DNA of 64,000 nt from Paracoccaceae bacterium (GTDB lineage Bacteria > Pseudomonadota > Alphaproteobacteria > Rhodobacterales > Rhodobacteraceae), in assembly GCA_958296035.1 (NCBI GenBank), contig OY282431.1, positions 682,001 through 746,000 of the forward strand, read 5' to 3'. The notes below the pieces were generated by a model. The model did no database searches. It was not told where the DNA came from and saw only the letters and a list, made by a program, of their open reading frames with translations. Position numbers and translations under genes: made by a program. Positions 4,384 through 62,352 of the stretch are shown here, one piece after another (the stretch's first letter is position 1; each line of letters begins with the position of its first letter).

Positions 4384-5538
4384 TCAGGCGTCGTGGACGT
4401 AATGTCTGCCTGTTGTGCCGGCCGCCTCGACCAGTTTATCGAAGGCATCCATGGAGCCGGCGAGATCGGTCTTGAAGCTATCCCATTCGGATAGCTGGTA
4501 TCCACCGGCTGCCTGCCATTCGGCCAACTGATCATCACTGAGAGAATGGAACTCGACACCGGACTTGCGCAGTTCGGCCATGGCAAAGCCACGGGCTGCA
4601 GGCACCTTGGCGAGATTTTGTTGCGATGTGATCTCCGCCGCAAATTCAATTCCTTCCTGCACGTCGCCGGGAAGTGACTCAAACCACTCCAGATTGCAGG
4701 AATAAACCTGGCTGTCCGGCACCGCCTGTGTAAAAGTAACGTGACTAAGGATATCCTTGAAACCAAACACGTACAGTGCTCCAACCGCCGGATCGAGCGC
4801 ATCGGCAACACCCTGCTTGATAGCAGAAGGTGTTTCGCCCCAGGCAACAGGTGTCGGATTGGCGCCGACCATCCTGTAATACTGCTGCAGCATCTTTGAA
4901 CCGGGAACGCGGAACTTCACACCCTTCAGGTCTGAAGGAACGATCACCGCGTCTCCACCTTTGCGGACAGCCACAACACGTGGGTCTATTACAATGTAGA
5001 AAAGTGGCTTGAAGCCACGTGCTTCCACCTGTGGGTGTACCGTTGCTTGCCAGTAGTCGGAAGTGACGAGGTTAACAAACCGCTGATTCGCACCACAAAG
5101 ATAGGGCAGGTTGATCAAATCAACGACCGGTGCAAACGGAGCAAAGTTGGACAGCGAGTGCTGGGCAGCCTGAATCGTTCCACCCTGGACTTTCTGGGCC
5201 AGGGCTCCGCCAACGCCGAGCTGCCCACCCGAGGCTAGCTTGACATAAACCTTCCCATTGGTGGCGTTCTGAATGTTCTCTTTGAAGTCAAGCTGCATGA
5301 TCGGATAACTGCGATCAGCGGTGAGGACGTAGGCAGTTGCTACTGTCATGATATGATCGGCTGCCTTTTCGCGTTCCGCCTCTTCCTTGGCGGTTTGCGC
5401 GGCTGCCTGCGATGACCAAAGTGTTCCTGCGGCACCGGCGACCGCAGCTGCAGTGAGACTGCCGGCGCCGGCAAGTTTCATGAAATTCCGGCGCTCCAGT
5501 GAAGCAATTTCGGACCTTGTGCTGATATCCTCAGGCAT
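4384..5538 (-). CDS. TRAP transporter substrate-binding protein (DctP family), Tat-exported
   Basis: A 384-residue periplasmic TRAP binding protein. The N-terminus has a twin-arginine motif, ERRNFMKLAG at about residues 15-24, followed by an Ala-rich hydrophobic segment and a likely cleavage after AQA near residue 48. This is the Tat-type export seen in many DctP proteins. The mature part has family features such as GGALAQKVQGG near 150 and KFRVPGSKM near 210. It is the first transporter gene of the operon and delivers substrate to DctQM. The ligand is not determinable by eye. A C3 sulfonate or short polyol fits the downstream enzymes. Confidence 0.93.
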   Translation of the reverse strand: MPEDISTRSEIASLERRNFMKLAGAGSLTAAAVAGAAGTLWSSQAAAQTAKEEAEREKAADHIMTVATAYVLTADRSYPIMQLDFKENIQNATNGKVYVKLASGGQLGVGGALAQKVQGGTIQAAQHSLSNFAPFAPVVDLINLPYLCGANQRFVNLVTSDYWQATVHPQVEARGFKPLFYIVIDPRVVAVRKGGDAVIVPSDLKGVKFRVPGSKMLQQYYRMVGANPTPVAWGETPSAIKQGVADALDPAVGALYVFGFKDILSHVTFTQAVPDSQVYSCNLEWFESLPGDVQEGIEFAAEITSQQNLAKVPAARGFAMAELRKSGVEFHSLSDDQLAEWQAAGGYQLSEWDSFKTDLAGSMDAFDKLVEAAGTTGRHYVHDA

Positions 5539-5552
5539 ATTGTTTCCTTGAA

Positions 5553-5765
5553 TTATTTTCCTTGTTCACGACGACGCACGGCCGTCTCCCGCAAAAGCAC
5601 CCCGACAACAAAGAATATTGTTGATACAAGGAGCAGAACCATCTCGCCAACGTCACCGAGCGGCGCACCAATTCTGGCCGCGCCCAGCATCACATTTCCG
5701 AAAAACAGGACAAAACACAGCAGAGCTACGAGCAACAGAGATTGTCCGCGCATGTTAACCACCAT
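5553..5765 (-). CDS. Small two-helix membrane protein at the head of the TRAP operon
   Basis: About 70 residues from ATG at 5765. Alternative starts are ATG at 5753 and an in-frame TTG at 5813, which would sit inside the operator. Two hydrophobic stretches are visible, SLLLVALLCFVLFFGNVML and VGEMVLLLVSTIFFVVGVLL, with a basic C-terminal tail (RETAVRRREQGK). It ends 14 bp before dctP and lies on the same strand. I do not recognise the family. It may be a leader gene or a small accessory of the transporter. Start choice is uncertain because an AAGGA motif lies only 2 bp before the 5765 ATG. Confidence 0.5.
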   Translation of the reverse strand: MVVNMRGQSLLLVALLCFVLFFGNVMLGAARIGAPLGDVGEMVLLLVSTIFFVVGVLLRETAVRRREQGK

Positions 5766-5813
5766 CTTCCTTGTCTCGGCTGTCACCAACCGATTCTTGC
5801 GTGCAGGCACCAA

Positions 5814-5827
5814 TGTAAGCGCTTACA
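5814..5827. promoter_or_regulatory. LacI-family operator palindrome
   Basis: TGTAAGCGCTTACA is a perfect 14-bp palindrome with the central CG/GC step typical of LacI/GalR-family sites. It lies about 50 bp upstream of the first gene of the minus-strand TRAP operon. A LacI-type regulator gene lies at 12686-13750. It would be the divergent neighbour if the intervening insertion sequences were removed, so it is the likely ligand-responsive repressor (inference). Confidence 0.7.
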
Positions 5828-6092
5828 CTGTGGAGCACAACCAAGAAAAGGCTTTCACCGGAGAAAGACATTCTTAACCACCAAGACATCAAACAAGCCT
5901 CAACCGAGACCGGATTTCGGTGGTTTCTCACAAGGCGGATCTTTCGAAGCGCGGCCGAATACGGTTCGGTAGCTCTGGAATGCACCCGAGAATTCAGCAA
6001 TTCTCATTATGGGCTGATCCACTGATTGTTTCACTATTCGGGCAATAAAGGTGCCAGAAGGGATTCCAGTTCCCGCTCGCTCCTGATTCAAC

Positions 6093-6438
6093 ATGGGGAT
6101 GCAAGCCCTCGAGAATCATATCGGGTTTCTGAAACGCCGTTGCGCCGCCATGCCCGACAGGCGCACCGGCAACAACGCCCGCCATACCATGGCCGATGCC
6201 GGTATGGCCGCCTTTGCCGTCTTCTTCACACAGTGCCCCTCCTTCCTCGCCGCACCGCGGGAACTCGAACAGCGCTCCAACGCCCACGCCCTGTTTGCCC
6301 TCGACAGCATCCCCACCGACAACCACATCAGAAACCTCCTCGACGGCGTGCCGCCCCGACACTTCGATCCCGTCTGCCTGCACCGCCTCGAAGACACGCT
6401 GCAACAGGGTGGCCTGGCTACCATGCAGCGCCTCAAGG
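6093..6438 (+). pseudogene. Transposase of the outer IS, N-terminal fragment
   Basis: From ATG 6093 the frame encodes about 115 residues typical of the N-terminus of a DDE transposase (MADAGMAAFAVFFTQCPSF, SIPTDNHIRNLLDGVPPRHF). It is cut at codon CTC-AAG-G by the IS66 insertion. The gene resumes at 11450: joined, it reads RLKGHTLIALDGTGSFRSR and so on, with the first catalytic Asp in ALDGT. Not functional in its present form. Confidence 0.85.
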
Positions 6439-23956: not shown

Positions 23957-24111
23957 GACGCTCTTGCAAAACCCGTATGATCAGGGGGTTCCTGCCTGAT
24001 TATCATTGCTCTTGTGAGGCTCAGAAGGCCAGGGATCGTTGCTCTGGTCTCTGGCAAGTAGGTATATGCTAATGGTCCACAGACGGAGGAACACGGATCA
24101 TAAGTCCTGAG

Positions 24112-24127
24112 ACACAGGGTCCTGTGT
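24112..24127. promoter_or_regulatory. Conserved palindrome upstream of the coiled-coil gene (element A)
   Basis: ACACAGG-GT-CCTGTGT: 7-bp arms with a 2-bp centre, 73 bp before the GTG start of the coiled-coil gene. The same site is kept upstream of the array in element B (59339-59354). Candidate operator; no regulator identified. Confidence 0.4.
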
Positions 24128-24200
24128 GCTGACCGCAATTCCGGCACGATCCGCGCGCCTTGTTGGCGATTGACCTGGCGGCCACGAGGTCCTGTCTTCT

Positions 24201-24536
24201 GTGACATCGCTCGGACATTCAGGCAGTCACCCGATGCAATCTGCAACTCCAGGAGACGCCTTCACGCCAGAACAGGTTGTTTGGCTTGAGAAACGCATCA
24301 ACGCGGCCTGGTCACAGGCCGAGCGAGGATTCGACAAGGCTACGCTCATGTGGATTATTGGCGGGCTGACCGCTCTGGGGGTCGCCGCGTCCGCCATCCT
24401 CTACAATGAGATTGGCTCTGTCCGCGATGAACTGCGCGTCGAGATTGGTACTGTCCGGGCGCAGGTATCCGACAATCGCGCCTCGCTCGCCCGCATAGAG
24501 GCGGTCTTGAACGAGCGACTGTCCCGCAACGTGTGA
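24201..24536 (+). CDS. Small membrane-anchored coiled-coil protein (single copy)
   Basis: 111 residues from GTG 24201; a start at ATG 24234 is also plausible. Order: a conserved soluble segment (FTPEQVVWLEKRINAAW, FDKATLMW), one transmembrane helix (IIGGLTALGVAASAILY), then a charged coiled coil built on EIGTVRDELR-type 11-residue units and a tail (RASLARIEAVLNERL). It is almost the same as the five tandem genes at 57004-59265 but has only one DELR unit. I do not recognise a named family. The architecture resembles small phage or plasmid membrane proteins of the XhlA kind, without a clear match. Confidence 0.75.
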   Translation: MTSLGHSGSHPMQSATPGDAFTPEQVVWLEKRINAAWSQAERGFDKATLMWIIGGLTALGVAASAILYNEIGSVRDELRVEIGTVRAQVSDNRASLARIEAVLNERLSRNV

Positions 24537-25102
24537 CCCGGCAAGCGGGCTGACCGGAGTTTTACGCACGGCTGTAGATGCCTGTCGGCTCTGCTTCTTC
24601 AAGGCCATTGCCCAACACAGCCGGGCATCGTCTTTGCTGTCAATCCACGCACCATCAAGGTGCTGGCGCAGCGCAGGAATGCGGCCCTTGCCCTTCGCTG
24701 GAGCGGCCATGCCGTCCCGAGCGCGGAGCGTGACAAGACCCACTCGACAGTCGGGCGTGTCAACGGGCAGTTGACGGACACTCAGGGTCCGCGGTCCTGC
24801 CACCGCATGTTCGGCATCCTGGTCATGACCGCCGAGCAACTGGTGGCTCCCGATTGACCCACAACTCCGGGCTGACCGGACAGCGGCCGCCAGGCTGATC
24901 GCCACCGTCCCCCTTTCGAGGACGGTGCGGTCAGGCATGCCTCCCAGGCAGGGCATTCGTGCAACAAGTGGGCACATCCACATTCAAAATGCGCAAACGT
25001 CAGTCACTGGCCCGCCGCCACTGAATTCAATGCAATTGCCGTTATCATGATGCTGCAACAGCATTGACAATGAAATTGCTGCAATAAACTTGAAAGAGGC
25101 TC

Positions 25103-55273: not shown

Positions 55274-55296
55274 GAGCCTCTTGCAAATCTATTGCA

Positions 55297-56409
55297 ACCC
55301 GAATTATGGATAAGCGGGTCTATTTTTCACCTTGATGCCCGATGTGCGCAAACAGCAGGTGACCAGACTGGACAGCGCAGGTGGCATGGCATGGCCCACT
55401 TGGCGACGTCGGCTGTGTTGGCGATTGTGGAGTGGAAAGACCGGTCGTCTTCATGGCGAGACCTGGTTTGCCCAGCGTATAGGCGACCAGGCAGGACAGG
55501 ATGTGGAGAAAGGCATTGTCGACTGAACGGTGCCTTGTATGCTCAAGTTCCATATCTCGCTTCAATGTGCCGAACAGGGTCTCGATGGTGAAGCGTTGGC
55601 GCAGCAGCATCTTGTCGGCAATGGGCATGAGATAATTGCGCCTATTGATGCGAATACGAGTCAGCAACTGCAACCCGCGTCGCCACAGCCGGTCGAAGCG
55701 CGCCTTGGAGATATAGCCCTTGTCACCAGGGATCCTGCCCTGGAGCCCGACCGTCAGTGCCTCCAGCGGCACCCGGTCATCGGTATTGCCGGGTGAGAAC
55801 TGCACAGCCATCAACTGGCCCTTGCTGTTGATGACCACATGCATCTTGAAGCCGTAGAACCACCCCATTGCGGTTCGCCCACGGGCGGCAAGCCCCTTGA
55901 ACACCCGATGACGCGAGCTGCGGGCGTTGTGGCAGACCGCTAGCCTGGTGCTGTCGATGATATACAGGCCGGTCTTTTCGCTGCCTTGGCACAGGTGGTG
56001 GAGCAGCAGCATGTAGGGCGGCAGCAATCTTGGCATCAGGGCTACAAAGCGTCCATAGGAAGGGAGGTCGCCGAAGCAGTCGCGGTAATAGCCCTCTATG
56101 GCATGAAGCCAGAAGCGTTTGAAGTTGCGGTAGGGTGACAGGTGGAACAGGGTCATGATGAACATCATCTCGCCCAGTGTGAGCTTGGTCTTGCGGATGC
56201 GTTTTCGTGTGGTAGGGACGAGGCGATGTCTTTCCCATGCCTCGCAGAGGCAGCCAAAATCGTAGAGACAACAGAAGAGCGCTATGGTAGATGTGTTCAT
56301 GGGAGGGATCCTCTGGATTGTTGTTGTGAACAACCCATAGAATCAGACTTTATGGGAAAAGGGAATCCCTCCTACCCAAGAATCGACCCCCCTTATCCAG
56401 AATCGGGGT
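55297..56409. mobile_element. IS982-family insertion sequence, 1113 bp
   Basis: Imperfect inverted ends (ACCCGAATTATGGATAAG at 55297, ACCCCGATTCTGGATAAG reading in from 56409) flanked by a 7-bp duplication TATTGCA (55290-55296 and 56410-56416). When removed, the flanks restore the distal end of element B in register with element A. Confidence 0.92.
55320..56300 (-). CDS. IS982-family transposase
   Basis: 326 residues from ATG 56300, with AGAGGA about 8 bp upstream; an ATG at 56333 is also in frame. N-terminal RLVPTTRKRIRKTKLTLGEM, then the DDE core: Asp in LYIIDSTRLAVCHN, Asp in GDKGYISK, Glu in FTIETLFGTLKRDM, and the typical HRVFKGLAARGRTAMGWFYG. The frame is intact and possibly active. 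Confidence 0.94.
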   Translation of the reverse strand: MNTSTIALFCCLYDFGCLCEAWERHRLVPTTRKRIRKTKLTLGEMMFIMTLFHLSPYRNFKRFWLHAIEGYYRDCFGDLPSYGRFVALMPRLLPPYMLLLHHLCQGSEKTGLYIIDSTRLAVCHNARSSRHRVFKGLAARGRTAMGWFYGFKMHVVINSKGQLMAVQFSPGNTDDRVPLEALTVGLQGRIPGDKGYISKARFDRLWRRGLQLLTRIRINRRNYLMPIADKMLLRQRFTIETLFGTLKRDMELEHTRHRSVDNAFLHILSCLVAYTLGKPGLAMKTTGLSTPQSPTQPTSPSGPCHATCAVQSGHLLFAHIGHQGEK

Positions 56410-57003
56410 TATTGCAGTAATTTCATTTTCAATGCTGTTGCAGCATCATGATGACGGCAATTGCATTGAATTCAGTGGCGGCGGGCCATTGACTGACGTT
56501 TTTGCATTTTGAATGTAGATTTGCCCACTTGTTGCACGAATATCCTGGCAGGGAGGCATGCCTGGCTGCACCGTCCTGGAAAGGCGACAGTGGCGAACAG
56601 CCTGGCGGTCGCTGTCCAGTCAGGAGGGTATTGTGGGTCAATCGGGAGCCAACAGTTGCTCGGCGGTCATGACCAGGATGCCGAACTTGCGGTGGCATGA
56701 CCGCGGACCCTGAGTTGCGCTAGCAGCGCCTTGTTGGTGCGTGGATTGACAGCAAAGATCGGGACATGGCCCGATGACCGGCTGTGTTACGCAATGGCCT
56801 TGAGGAAGCAGAGTCGAAAGGCATCAACAGCATTGAGTTAAACACCGATCAGCCCGCTTTCCTACAGCGCTGCCGGTAGATTGCAGTATCGACCGGCGGC
56901 GATTGTCAGGGTTCGAAACGGGCCGCAGCGTCCATCTCGTGCCGCCTGGCGCGGGTCACTGGCCGCTTGTGCGGCCCGAGAGACACCAAATCGACTTGCC
57001 GGG
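56410..57003. other. Non-coding distal part of element B
   Basis: About 590 bp that match the non-coding part of element A (24540-25090) in inverse orientation with scattered differences. Short conserved patches exist, for example one that could encode VPIFAVNPRTNKALLAQLR on the minus strand, but no complete gene. Possibly eroded coding DNA of the ancestral element. Confidence 0.5.
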
Positions 57004-57372
57004 TCACATGTTGCGGGGCAGTCGCTCGTTCAAGATTGCCTCTATGCGGGCGAGCGAGGCGCGATTGTCGGATACCTGCGCCCGGACAGTACCAATCTCG
57101 ACGCGCAGTTCATCGCGGACAGTACCGATCTCGGTACGCAGTTCATCGCGGACAGAGCCAATCTCATTATAGAGGAAAGCGGACGCGGCGACCCCCAGCG
57201 CGGTCAGCCCGCCAATAATCCACATGAGTGTAGCCTTGTCGAATCCCCGCTCGGCCTGTGACCAGGCCGCGTTGATGCGTTTCTCAAGCCAAACAACCTG
57301 TTCTGGCGTGAAGGCGTCTTTTGCAGTTGCAGATTGCATCGGGTGGCTGCCTGAATGTCCGAGCGATGTCAC
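57004..57372 (-). CDS. Membrane-anchored coiled-coil protein, array copy 1 (distal)
   Basis: 122 residues from GTG 57372 (ATG 57339 also possible). Soluble N-terminal part FTPEQVVWLEKRINAAW, one transmembrane helix IIGGLTALGVAASAFLY, then two DELR-type 11-residue units and the tail RASLARIEAILNERLP. Unknown family. Ends in the last hairpin of the array. Confidence 0.72.
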   Translation of the reverse strand: MTSLGHSGSHPMQSATAKDAFTPEQVVWLEKRINAAWSQAERGFDKATLMWIIGGLTALGVAASAFLYNEIGSVRDELRTEIGTVRDELRVEIGTVRAQVSDNRASLARIEAILNERLPRNM

Positions 57373-57471
57373 AGAAGATAAGATCTCGTGGCCGCCAAGT
57401 CAATCGCCAACGACGGGCGCGGGTTACTGGCCGCTTGTGCGGCCCCAGAGATACCAAATCGACTTGCCGGG

Positions 57472-57840
57472 TCACATGTTGCGGGGCAGTCGCTCGTTCA
57501 AGATCGCCTCTATGCGGGCGAGCGAGGCGCGATTGTCGGATACCTGCGCCCGGACAGTACCGATCTCGACGCGCAGTTCATCGCGGACAGTACCGATCTC
57601 GGTACGCAGTTCATCGCGGACAGAGCCAATCTCATTATAGAGGAAAGCGGACGCGGCGACCCCCAGCGCGGTCAGCCCGCCAATAATCCACATGAGTGTA
57701 GCCTTGTCGAATCCCCGCTCGGCCTGTGACCAGGCCGCGTTGATGCGTTTCTCAAGCCAAACAACCTGTTCTGGCGTGAAGGCGTCTTTTGCAGTTGCAG
57801 ATTGCATCGGGTGGCTGCCTGAATGTCCGAGCGATGTCAC
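57472..57840 (-). CDS. Membrane-anchored coiled-coil protein, array copy 2
   Basis: 122 residues, the same protein as copy 1 as far as can be read, with two DELR units. Near-identity of gene and spacer points to recent duplication or gene conversion. Confidence 0.72.
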   Translation of the reverse strand: MTSLGHSGSHPMQSATAKDAFTPEQVVWLEKRINAAWSQAERGFDKATLMWIIGGLTALGVAASAFLYNEIGSVRDELRTEIGTVRDELRVEIGTVRAQVSDNRASLARIEAILNERLPRNM

Positions 57841-57939
57841 AGAAGATAAGATCTCGTGGCCGCCAAGTCAATCGCCAACGACGGGCGCGGGTTACTGGCC
57901 GCTTGTGCGGCCCCAGAGATACCAAATCGACTTGCCGGG

Positions 57940-58341
57940 TCACTCGTTGCGGGGCAGTCGCTCGTTCAAGATCGCCTCTATGCGGGCGAGCGAGGCGCGA
58001 TTGTCGGATACCTGCGTCCGGACAGTACCGATCTCGACGCGCAGTTCATCGCGGACAGTACCGATCTCGGCGCGCAGTTCATCGCGGACAGTACCGATCT
58101 CGGTACGCAGTTCATCGCGGACAGAGCCAATCTCATTATAGAGGAAAGCGGACGCGGCGACCCCCAGCGCGGTCAGCCCGCCAATAATCCACATGAGTGT
58201 AGCCTTGTCGAATCCCCGCTCGGCCTGTGACCAGGCCGCGTTGATGCGTTTCTCAAGCCAAACAACCTGTTCTGGCGTGAAGGCGTCTTTTGCAGTTGCA
58301 GATTGCATCGGGTGGCTGCCTGAATGTCCGAGCGATGTCAC
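57940..58341 (-). CDS. Membrane-anchored coiled-coil protein, array copy 3 (longest tail)
   Basis: 133 residues. Three exact-length 33-bp modules at 58021-58053, 58054-58086 and 58087-58119 encode three DELR units, one more than copies 1 and 2. The C-terminus is PRNE instead of PRNM. Confidence 0.72.
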   Translation of the reverse strand: MTSLGHSGSHPMQSATAKDAFTPEQVVWLEKRINAAWSQAERGFDKATLMWIIGGLTALGVAASAFLYNEIGSVRDELRTEIGTVRDELRAEIGTVRDELRVEIGTVRTQVSDNRASLARIEAILNERLPRNE

Positions 58342-58440
58342 AGAAGATAAGATCTCGTGGCCGCCAAGTCAATCGCCAACGACGGGCGCGGGTTACTGGC
58401 CGCTTGTGCGGCCCCAGAGATACCAAATCGACTTGCCGGG

Positions 58441-58830
58441 TCACTCGTTGCGGGGCAGTCGCTCGTTCAAGATCGCCTCTATGCGGGCGAGCGAGGCGCG
58501 ATTGTCGGATACCTGCGCCCGGACAGTACCAATCTCGACGCGCAGTTCATCGCGGACAGTACCGATCTCGGCCCGGACAGTACCGATCTCGGCGCGCAGT
58601 TCATCGCGGACAGAGCCAATCTCATTATAGAGGAAAGCGGACGCGGCGACCCCCAGCGCGGTCAGCCCGCCAATAATCCACATGAGTGTAGCCTTGTCGA
58701 ATCCCCGCTCGGCCTGTGACCAGGCCGCGTTGATGCGTTTCTCAAGCCAAACAACCTGTTCTGGCGTGAAGGCGTCTTTTGCAGTTGCAGATTGCATCGG
58801 GTGGCTGCCTGAATGTCCGAGCGATGTCAC
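58441..58830 (-). CDS. Membrane-anchored coiled-coil protein, array copy 4 (irregular tail)
   Basis: 129 residues. Two DELR units plus a partial 7-residue unit (AEIGTVR), which breaks the 11-residue register and gives a heptad-sized step. Otherwise as copies 1-3. Confidence 0.72.
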   Translation of the reverse strand: MTSLGHSGSHPMQSATAKDAFTPEQVVWLEKRINAAWSQAERGFDKATLMWIIGGLTALGVAASAFLYNEIGSVRDELRAEIGTVRAEIGTVRDELRVEIGTVRAQVSDNRASLARIEAILNERLPRNE

Positions 58831-58929
58831 AGAAGATAAGATCTCGTGGCCGCCAAGTCAATCGCCAACGACGGGCGCGGGTTACTGGCCGCTTGTGCGG
58901 CCCCAGAGATACCAAATCGACTTACCGGG

Positions 58930-59265
58930 TCACTCGTTGCGGGGCAGTCGCTCGTTCAAGATCGCCTCTATGCGGGCGAGCGAGGCGCGATTGTCGGATA
59001 CCTGCGCCCGGACAGTACCAATCTCGGCGCGCAGTTCATCCTGGACAGAACCGATCTCATTGTAGAGGATGGCGGACACGGCGACCCCCAGCGCGGTCAG
59101 CCCGCCAATAATCCACATGAGCGTAGCCTTGTCGAATCCCCGCTCGGCCTGTGACCAGGCCGCGTTGATGCGTTTCTCAAGCCAAACAACCTGTTCTGGC
59201 GTGAAGGCGTCTCCTGGAGTTGCAGATTGCATCGGGTGGCTGCCTGAATGTCCGAGCGATGTCAC
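58930..59265 (-). CDS. Membrane-anchored coiled-coil protein, array copy 5 (promoter-proximal)
   Basis: 111 residues, a single DELR unit. Small differences from the others (SATPGDAFTPEQ, AVSAILY, SVQDELR) are largely shared with the element A gene, so this is probably the least altered member. First gene after the conserved leader and palindrome. Confidence 0.72.
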   Translation of the reverse strand: MTSLGHSGSHPMQSATPGDAFTPEQVVWLEKRINAAWSQAERGFDKATLMWIIGGLTALGVAVSAILYNEIGSVQDELRAEIGTVRAQVSDNRASLARIEAILNERLPRNE

Positions 59266-59338
59266 AGAAGACAGGACCTCGTGGCCGCCAGGTCAATCGC
59301 CAACAAGGCGCGCGGATCGTGCCGGAATTGCGGTCAGC

Positions 59339-59354
59339 ACACAGGACCCTGTGT
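59339..59354. promoter_or_regulatory. Conserved palindrome upstream of the array (element B)
   Basis: ACACAGG-AC-CCTGTGT, the same site as 24112-24127 read from the other strand, 73 bp before the first array gene. Candidate operator or structured leader. Confidence 0.4.
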
Positions 59355-59733
59355 CTCCGGACTTATGATCCGTGTTCCTCCGTCTGTGGACCATTAGCAT
59401 ATACCTACGTACCAGAGACCAGAGCAACGATCCCTGGCCCTCTGAGCCTCACAAGAGCAATGATAATCAGGCAAGAACCCCCTGATCATACGGGTTTTGC
59501 AAGAGGCTCAACCAAGCCTACGGTATTGGGCACGCGATGCTTGAATTCCGAAGTTTTGCCTTATGCGATCCCTTCTCCAAGAAATTAAGGAAAGGATTCT
59601 TGAGTGACAATGCCCATTGTCGGATGCCTCGCCATTCACGCTAACCCGGCGCAGTTTTGTAGTCGCGACCAGGTTTAACTCAAGCCAAGGCGCCAGGATT
59701 CGCGTTTTGGGCACGGGTCCTGGAGATCCGTAG

Positions 59734-60904: not shown

Positions 60905-61189
60905 TCATTTCAGTACCGGGAGATCATCAGGATCAACGAGGACCCTGATGCTCCGGGCTTTCCCAGGGATCCGTTCGATAAGCCCGGCACGGTCGAGATT
61001 GAGAACCATCTGGTGGACACTCGGCGGGGTGACCTGGAAGTGTCTCTTCATATCAGCCTCGGCCGGCGCTCGCCCGAACATCTTCGTATAGGCATGGATG
61101 AAGGCCAGATACTGGCCCTGCTTTACAGTGAACCCTGTAGTTGGCGACTGGCAATTGTCGTTTGATTGATTCATCAGAGCATCCAACAA
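60905..61189 (-). CDS. LexA/MarR-like winged-helix protein carried by the IS630 element
   Basis: 94 residues from ATG 61189, or 89 from ATG 61174. Contains KQGQYLAFIHAYTKMFGRAP, EADMKRHFQVTPPSVHQMVL and NLDRAGLIERIPGKARSIRV, the winged helix-turn-helix seen in the LexA N-terminus, but no peptidase domain. It lies inside the terminal repeats and overlaps the transposase promoter region, so it may repress transposition (inference). Confidence 0.8.
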   Translation of the reverse strand: MLDALMNQSNDNCQSPTTGFTVKQGQYLAFIHAYTKMFGRAPAEADMKRHFQVTPPSVHQMVLNLDRAGLIERIPGKARSIRVLVDPDDLPVLK

Positions 61190-61203
61190 AAATGGAGGCA
61201 GAT

Positions 61204-62352
<1,149 letters not shown>

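Follow-up and report, generated by a model that had tools for sequence, protein, structure and literature searches.

The window analyzed here is a 64,000-nucleotide stretch of Paracoccaceae bacterium DNA (assembly GCA_958296035.1, contig OY282431.1, positions 682,001 to 746,000), which carries a head-to-tail array of five minus-strand genes (57004-59265, as GTG-start open reading frames; g1 to g5 in Table 1), each encoding a predicted transmembrane (TM) helix and a helical rod. The four spacers between the genes are all 99 bp long, three being identical and that between g1 and g2 differing by one base, and a GGCCGC-TTGT-GCGGCC hairpin lies 3' of every gene. Genome-wide, this hairpin pattern has six matches (five in the array and one at 495,455), against one for the reversed-pattern control. 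Tandem Repeats Finder (TRF) assigns the array a score of 3498, with a period of 468 and 4.4 copies; a tandem array with this score is far beyond chance.

Differences between the units come in whole modules of 33 or 21 bp, such that the rod insert following the motif NEIGSV is 11 aa in g1, 29 aa (11 + 7 + 11) in g2, 33 aa in g3, and 22 aa in both g4 and g5. Five genes, 99-bp spacers with the hairpin, and length steps of 11 residues had been claimed in the original prediction, and all are borne out by sequence comparison and pattern counts. Its description of the units as near-identical applies to g2-g5 (98.4-99.4% mutual identity over 318 shared nt) but not to g1, which stands apart at 95.6-96.5% identity to the others. 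The true start is likely the ATG at residue 12 rather than the GTG; near this position, a Met is likewise found in the two paralogues at 3.12 and 3.17 Mb. With the start moved, the spacer would be 132 bp.

Repeated units are hard to assemble, and the genome is estimated to be 95.03% complete and 3.66% contaminated, which could suggest that the array was wrongly expanded during assembly. However, the genome is a single contig of 3.64 Mb, and the units have unit-specific bases and module numbers that are not expected if one unit had been artificially expanded; we regard an assembly artefact as very improbable.

The insertion-sequence-derived element around the array

The array lies within a larger element derived from an insertion sequence (IS), 4236 bp in length, or 3116 bp when a later IS982 insertion and one 7-bp duplication are subtracted. 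The extent originally predicted, 56961-59265, covers part of the full unit, which spans 55274-59509. A genome search with the two cassette flanks (18 and 26 rows of matching places for the two ends; 14 stretches examined) identified an IS of about 1.53 kb that has both cassette ends. The same genome harbors five intact copies of this IS at 99.6-100% identity, in all of which a transposase frame of 397 codons is free of stops; the 4-bp target duplication is perfect in four of the five copies, and three of its four bases agree in the fifth. Compared with this IS, the cassette retains the 5' end and the 3' part, whereas most of the transposase gene is gone and the passenger gene is in its place.

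Table 1. Features of the array, its enclosing element, and the second cassette copy (window positions).
Feature	Position	Strand	Details
g1	58930-59265	-	111 aa, one 11-aa module
g2	58441-58830	-	129 aa, two 11-aa modules and one 7-aa module
g3	57940-58341	-	133 aa, three modules
g4	57472-57840	-	122 aa, two modules
g5	57004-57372	-	122 aa, two modules; protein identical to g4
Spacer g1-g2	58831-58929	-	99 bp; hairpin and promoter-like TTGACT-17-TATCTT before g2
Spacer g2-g3	58342-58440	-	99 bp; hairpin and promoter-like TTGACT-17-TATCTT before g3
Spacer g3-g4	57841-57939	-	99 bp; hairpin and promoter-like TTGACT-17-TATCTT before g4
Spacer g4-g5	57373-57471	-	99 bp; hairpin and promoter-like TTGACT-17-TATCTT before g5
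Fifth hairpin	56961-56976	-	3' of g5; followed by 3' flank in common with 495-kb copy
Whole non-autonomous IS-derived element with array	55274-59509	-	Terminal repeats match those of the 1.5-kb IS
Terminal inverted repeat, gene-proximal (5') end	59495-59509	-	GAGCCTCTTGCAAAA; 15/15 with left end of intact IS
Terminal inverted repeat, other end	55274-55288	+	GAGCCTCTTGCAAAT; one mismatch to IS left-end pattern, two to right-end pattern
Transposase C-terminal remnants, two pieces, one with stop	56641-56801	-	tblastn with intact IS transposase, E 1.1e-8 and 0.001
IS982-family insertion inside element	55297-56409	-	228.8 bits, cut-off 130; transposase ORF (open reading frame) 55320-56333
Single-gene cassette copy	23957-25102	+	Same element as array
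Passenger gene of single-gene copy	24201-24536	+	111 aa, one module; sixth gene copy in window
Transposase C-terminal remnant, single-gene copy	24603-24845	+	49% over 92 columns, E 2e-18

The transposase of the intact, parent-type IS resembles the IS1182/IS5 group in matching DUF772 and DDE_Tnp_1, with IS1182 as its best NCBIfam model; unlike that group, it scores below the IS1182 cut-off (109.9 bits vs. 270), and scores for all nine of the NCBIfam models listed fall short of the curated thresholds (IS5_4, 69.9 vs. 140). By these matches the IS would be a DDE transposase element of IS1182/IS5 type, short of assignment to the IS1182 family. More distant relatives of the parent transposase, each with 50% identity, are encoded elsewhere in the genome (G000:C1:2258732-2259568) and in one genome of the same genus (G003).

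Four copies of the cassette were found: the array copy, the single-gene copy at 24 kb of the window, and copies at 495 kb and 1989 kb of the genome. The array flanks match those of the 24-kb copy at 96.9% over 585 bp (g1 included) and 90.6% over 308 bp; because the match holds on both flanks, the array and the single gene are copies of one larger element. Terminal inverted repeats are present at both ends of the array, 24-kb, and 495-kb copies, and at one end only at 1989 kb. Transposase C-terminal remnants occur in the same three of the four copies, and the truncated 1989-kb copy, in which the passenger gene is truncated too, gave no significant match to a transposase remnant. The 495-kb copy has a broken passenger gene and another inserted ORF, with TCAC on both sides as a perfect 4-bp target duplication. 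In the array copy, the IS982-family element is flanked by the 7-bp duplication TATTGCA (55290-55296 and 56410-56416) and was inserted near one end after the cassette had formed. A third IS type lies near the array, as an IS630-family transposase ORF (61141-62352; NCBIfam 242.8 bits, cut-off 100).

MIC231 of Bacillus cereus is a mobile insertion cassette. Such cassettes are non-autonomous, have IS-type ends around a passenger, and need an active transposase (PMC5444012, PMC6542083). The element described here is like MIC231 and the qnrS2-bearing cassette of Aeromonas in having IS-type ends, a passenger gene, and no autonomy; unlike them, it has a different IS type, retains a transposase remnant, and carries a passenger that is tandemly multiplied and varies in rod length. 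There is no functional transposase gene of its own inside the cassette, only the C-terminal remnants, as the IS982 gene belongs to the later insertion. The passenger is unrelated to transposition, and the passenger proteins scanned against Pfam, NCBIfam, and PHROG gave no transposase match.

We therefore interpret the array, with a probability of roughly 80%, as the amplified cargo, multiplied in place, of an IS-derived element resembling a mobile insertion cassette. The original prediction knew of no described system with this layout. As regards the frame this goes too far: the array is enclosed by terminal repeats and accompanied by transposase remnants, and IS-derived cassettes of this sort are a known kind of element. 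Part of what the prediction had named as speaking against it, membership of a known mobile kind, is thereby borne out. The array is a case in which the cargo gene, rather than the whole element, is amplified in place inside such a cassette; among the matches listed, the titles and opening abstract lines of literature on mobile insertion cassettes, Bdr proteins, IS1182, transporter ISs, and tandem coiled-coil amplification describe no layout of this kind, and no paper was returned on tandem transmembrane hendecad coiled coils. The copies within this genome, of which one has a single unit, one has five, one is broken, and one is truncated, are useful for studying cargo capture and multiplication.

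Origin and expression of the array

The anatomy of the copies shows that an IS of the IS1182/IS5 type lost most of its transposase gene, and that a small gene for a membrane-anchored helical rod now occupies this position between IS-type ends. This derivative may then have dispersed in the genome with a transposase acting in trans, as the perfect target duplication in one copy indicates and as we infer for the others. In one copy, a single duplication of the gene and its flanks would have taken place close to a CGCGCC common to both flanks, after which the tandem would have expanded to five units via unequal homologous recombination. The internal joint is the same in all four spacers, which is most simply explained if a single duplication founded the array and unequal recombination then enlarged it; CGCGCC occurs at the joint in both parental flanks, on the left upstream of g1 (as at 24 and 1989 kb) and on the right after g5 (as at 495 kb). 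The 33-bp modules would have been gained or lost by slippage or exchange, with the frame kept intact and the rod extended by 11 residues each time. The original suggestion of recombination-driven amplification is supported by the four identical joints and by the differences in whole 33-bp or 21-bp modules.

Several observations weigh against this account of a dispersed cassette with amplified cargo. Beside the perfect target duplication at 495 kb, the array copy has one only with a one-base shift (GGTT / C-GGTT) and the 24-kb copy has none (TTAG / GAGA), the 1989-kb copy being truncated; of two more distant IS relatives, one agrees at three of four target bases (CATG / CATA) and the other at none. 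The 3' parts of the cassettes differ by about 24-31% from the present intact IS (69-76% identical), and its five copies are therefore possibly not the real parent or helper. Matching segments among the cassette copies are 77-97% identical with gaps counted, and thus no recent movement is shown. By eye, the start codon of the parent's transposase is altered in the 24-kb copy, and a strong ribosome site was not seen ahead of the passenger. At the joint, CGTC is found instead of the TT expected from simple joining, and the fit of a founding duplication is therefore not clean. Finally, g1 is slightly nearer to the single 24-kb gene (96.9% identity) than to its array neighbors, and simple copying of g1 therefore does not account for the whole history; cassette copies may have exchanged sequence, or the array may predate dispersal. 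A mosaic 24-kb gene, with a g1-like front and a g2-g5-like rod, is not claimed, as the site conflict involves very few bases.

Multiplication of the cargo might serve dosage, with extra copies raising the amount of a single protein in response to some selection. The presence of five adjacent near-copies is consistent with this, as is the TTGACT-17-TATCTT found by the promoter-like scan just 5' of the gene in each of the four amplified spacers. However, consensus matches are not the same as function, and g1 has a variant (TTGACC...TGTCTT) that is absent from the scan output. The region holds nine promoter-like sites vs. 1.5 (sd 1.4) expected, an excess that is inflated by the repeats: four of the nine are one spacer site repeated, and the other five are one intragenic site repeated. 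A role in dosage is unlikely on this evidence. The intrinsic terminator scan of 56350-59600 returned two sites vs. 2.7 expected, none at a hairpin, and the hairpins are therefore not called terminators.

The passenger protein and its rod

The passenger protein has a single predicted TM segment at residues 49-67 (best 19-residue hydropathy window from residue 49, mean 1.9-2.1). AlphaFold2 models g3, from an alignment of only six sequences, with a helix at residues 46-128 (mean pLDDT 77.2, pTM 0.36; block-mean pLDDT 72-81 for residues 41-70 and 85-95 for residues 71-120); the predicted protein is a TM helix that runs on into a helical rod without a break. In a scan of 80-120 degrees, the tail has its largest hydrophobic moment at 99-100 degrees, near the 98 degrees of an 11-residue repeat, and each 11-residue module adds about 1.65 nm of helix by standard rise. 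The protein probably sits in the membrane via its one TM helix and may form an oligomeric rod. Of the TM helix and coiled coil originally proposed, the single TM segment and the long helix agree with hydropathy and AlphaFold2, whereas an oligomeric coiled coil is putative. The sequence of g3 matches apolipoprotein E among Protein Data Bank (PDB) entries (E 1.4e-4), with weak matches to designed or viral helical proteins; these are read as common helical repeat composition, although, because of the apolipoprotein E match, the tail may not be a coiled coil but an amphipathic helix of apolipoprotein type.

No scanned passenger protein has a match above the curated cut-off in Pfam or NCBIfam. Sub-threshold Pfam matches were obtained for g2 and g3 (e.g., Baculo_PEP_C, E 0.0089), and the best PHROG match, phrog_9415 (function not annotated; E 6.4e-7 for g3), covers the repeat rod only. 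The CCDC90-like family (PF07798) is membrane-anchored, and the passenger resembles this coiled-coil family in a match of the g3 rod (E 0.011; residues 72-118, repeat region only); at 16 bits, g3 lies below the gathering cut-off of 33.5, and the other scanned passenger proteins are unmatched. Weak PHROG matches, with E values of 0.02 (g1; also one paralogue) and 0.1 (g3), might point to a phage lysis protein (Rz-like spanin) or another prophage gene. None of these is a clear profile match, the surroundings are IS ends with no lysis-gene setting, and tblastn found no match to the passenger in 50,697 phage records and 72,556 plasmid records; a prophage origin is therefore hardly credible.

In the Bdr proteins of Borrelia the membrane segment is C-terminal, whereas here it precedes the rod. 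Bdr is a multi-copy, repeat-bearing family with unknown functions, in which the number of bdrT repeats varies between orthologues (about 9 vs. about 6), and its genes lie on Borrelia plasmids, the cp32 prophage plasmids among them (PMC3303823). The passenger family is like Bdr in being multi-copy with varying repeat number, and unlike it in residing on an IS cassette rather than on plasmids. The Pfam, NCBIfam, and PHROG scans yielded no match assigned to a Bdr family, although these libraries may lack one and the Bdr sequences themselves were not aligned.

The ratio dN/dS is 0.22-0.45 in 20 comparisons, made between the six window genes and three divergent relatives or between one paralogue and L022. 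The comparisons are not independent, and most of them have dS > 1, a range in which the estimate is poor. The deep values suggest purifying selection. Against this stand the poor estimate at dS > 1 in the divergent comparisons and the close pair L013/L015, with a dN/dS of 0.71. Among the six recent copies, dN/dS is 0.38-0.51 in 12 of 15 pairs and 0, 0.23, and 1.36 in the others, on few changes, and selection is therefore poorly measured there.

These values bear on whether rod length is itself selected, with module and unit numbers kept variable because rods of several lengths, or mixed oligomers, are useful at the membrane or surface. The deep dN/dS would favor such selection, as would the intact frame in all five units, the fit of both 11- and 7-residue steps to a helical repeat, and a length difference in the divergent paralogue pair, there by 7-residue units (63 bp). 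However, slippage in 33- or 21-bp repeats preserves the frame without selection, the recent copies yield dN/dS from few changes, and the gene is broken in one of the cassette copies and truncated in another. Moreover, neither a partner gene nor a conserved setting was found, in a comparison for which few settings were available. Selection on rod length appears quite unlikely, and it is distinctly improbable that the cassette is a diversity generator, in which amplified membrane-anchored rods, changing in steps of 11 residues (7 in the divergent paralogues), would give one cell several rod lengths, reshuffled by recombination across units and cassette copies, and the length variation would be selected. 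The membrane ruler and dosage roles put forward in the original prediction are conjectural. If rod length were selected, the array would provide a new setting for variable-length membrane rods, on a simple transposable cassette. Most likely, the array arose by gene amplification of an ordinary sort, and rod length has at most a minor special role.

Relatives and distribution

The passenger family is very rare. A single-protein search matched 1 of 101 genomes, its own; with alignment A1, matches were obtained in 5 of 385 genomes drawn from the class, 2 of 390 from the order, and 2 of 398 from the phylum, the own genome included in each (the draws may overlap, and the overlap is uncounted). Six other genomes have weak A1 matches over part of the model (E 9.0e-4 to 1.3e-8), at L099, L100, L101, L102, L116, and L121. 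The surroundings of the three matches inspected (L099, L100, and L101) show a hydrophobic segment and a helical, partly repeated tail; L099 also has a similar end, ILEERLPR. The one clear relative outside the genome is on a contig labelled as a Rhodobacter sp. metagenome-assembled genome; among 201 stretches of genome_contigs that matched the pattern it was the only one, and its best segment has 43% identity. In viral contigs, 27 stretches matched the pattern, and none of them was confirmed.

Two divergent paralogues are encoded in the same genome, at 3.125 Mb (L081, about 5700-6137) and 3.172 Mb (L082, about 5352-5816), which share about 0.42 kb at 88% in two blocks. Their rods are built from 7-residue IGKNRA-type repeats, four at 3.125 Mb vs. 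one at 3.172 Mb, a difference of three units or 63 bp. Both lie close to other IS remains. The terminal-repeat pattern of the cassette has only 4-mismatch matches near these two paralogues, in a scan that did not include the Rhodobacter contig. Short inverted-repeat pairs number one around the Rhodobacter relative, and zero and four around the two paralogues. Directly following the 3.172-Mb paralogue, a segment of some 100 bp (L082, about 5739-5838) matches many other places in the genome and is perhaps a small dispersed repeat. At 2965 kb (G000:C1:2964907-2965062, L021), there is a weak partial match to the N-terminal part of the passenger (47% identity, with a stop in frame), which by eye adjoins an apparent DNA methyltransferase gene.

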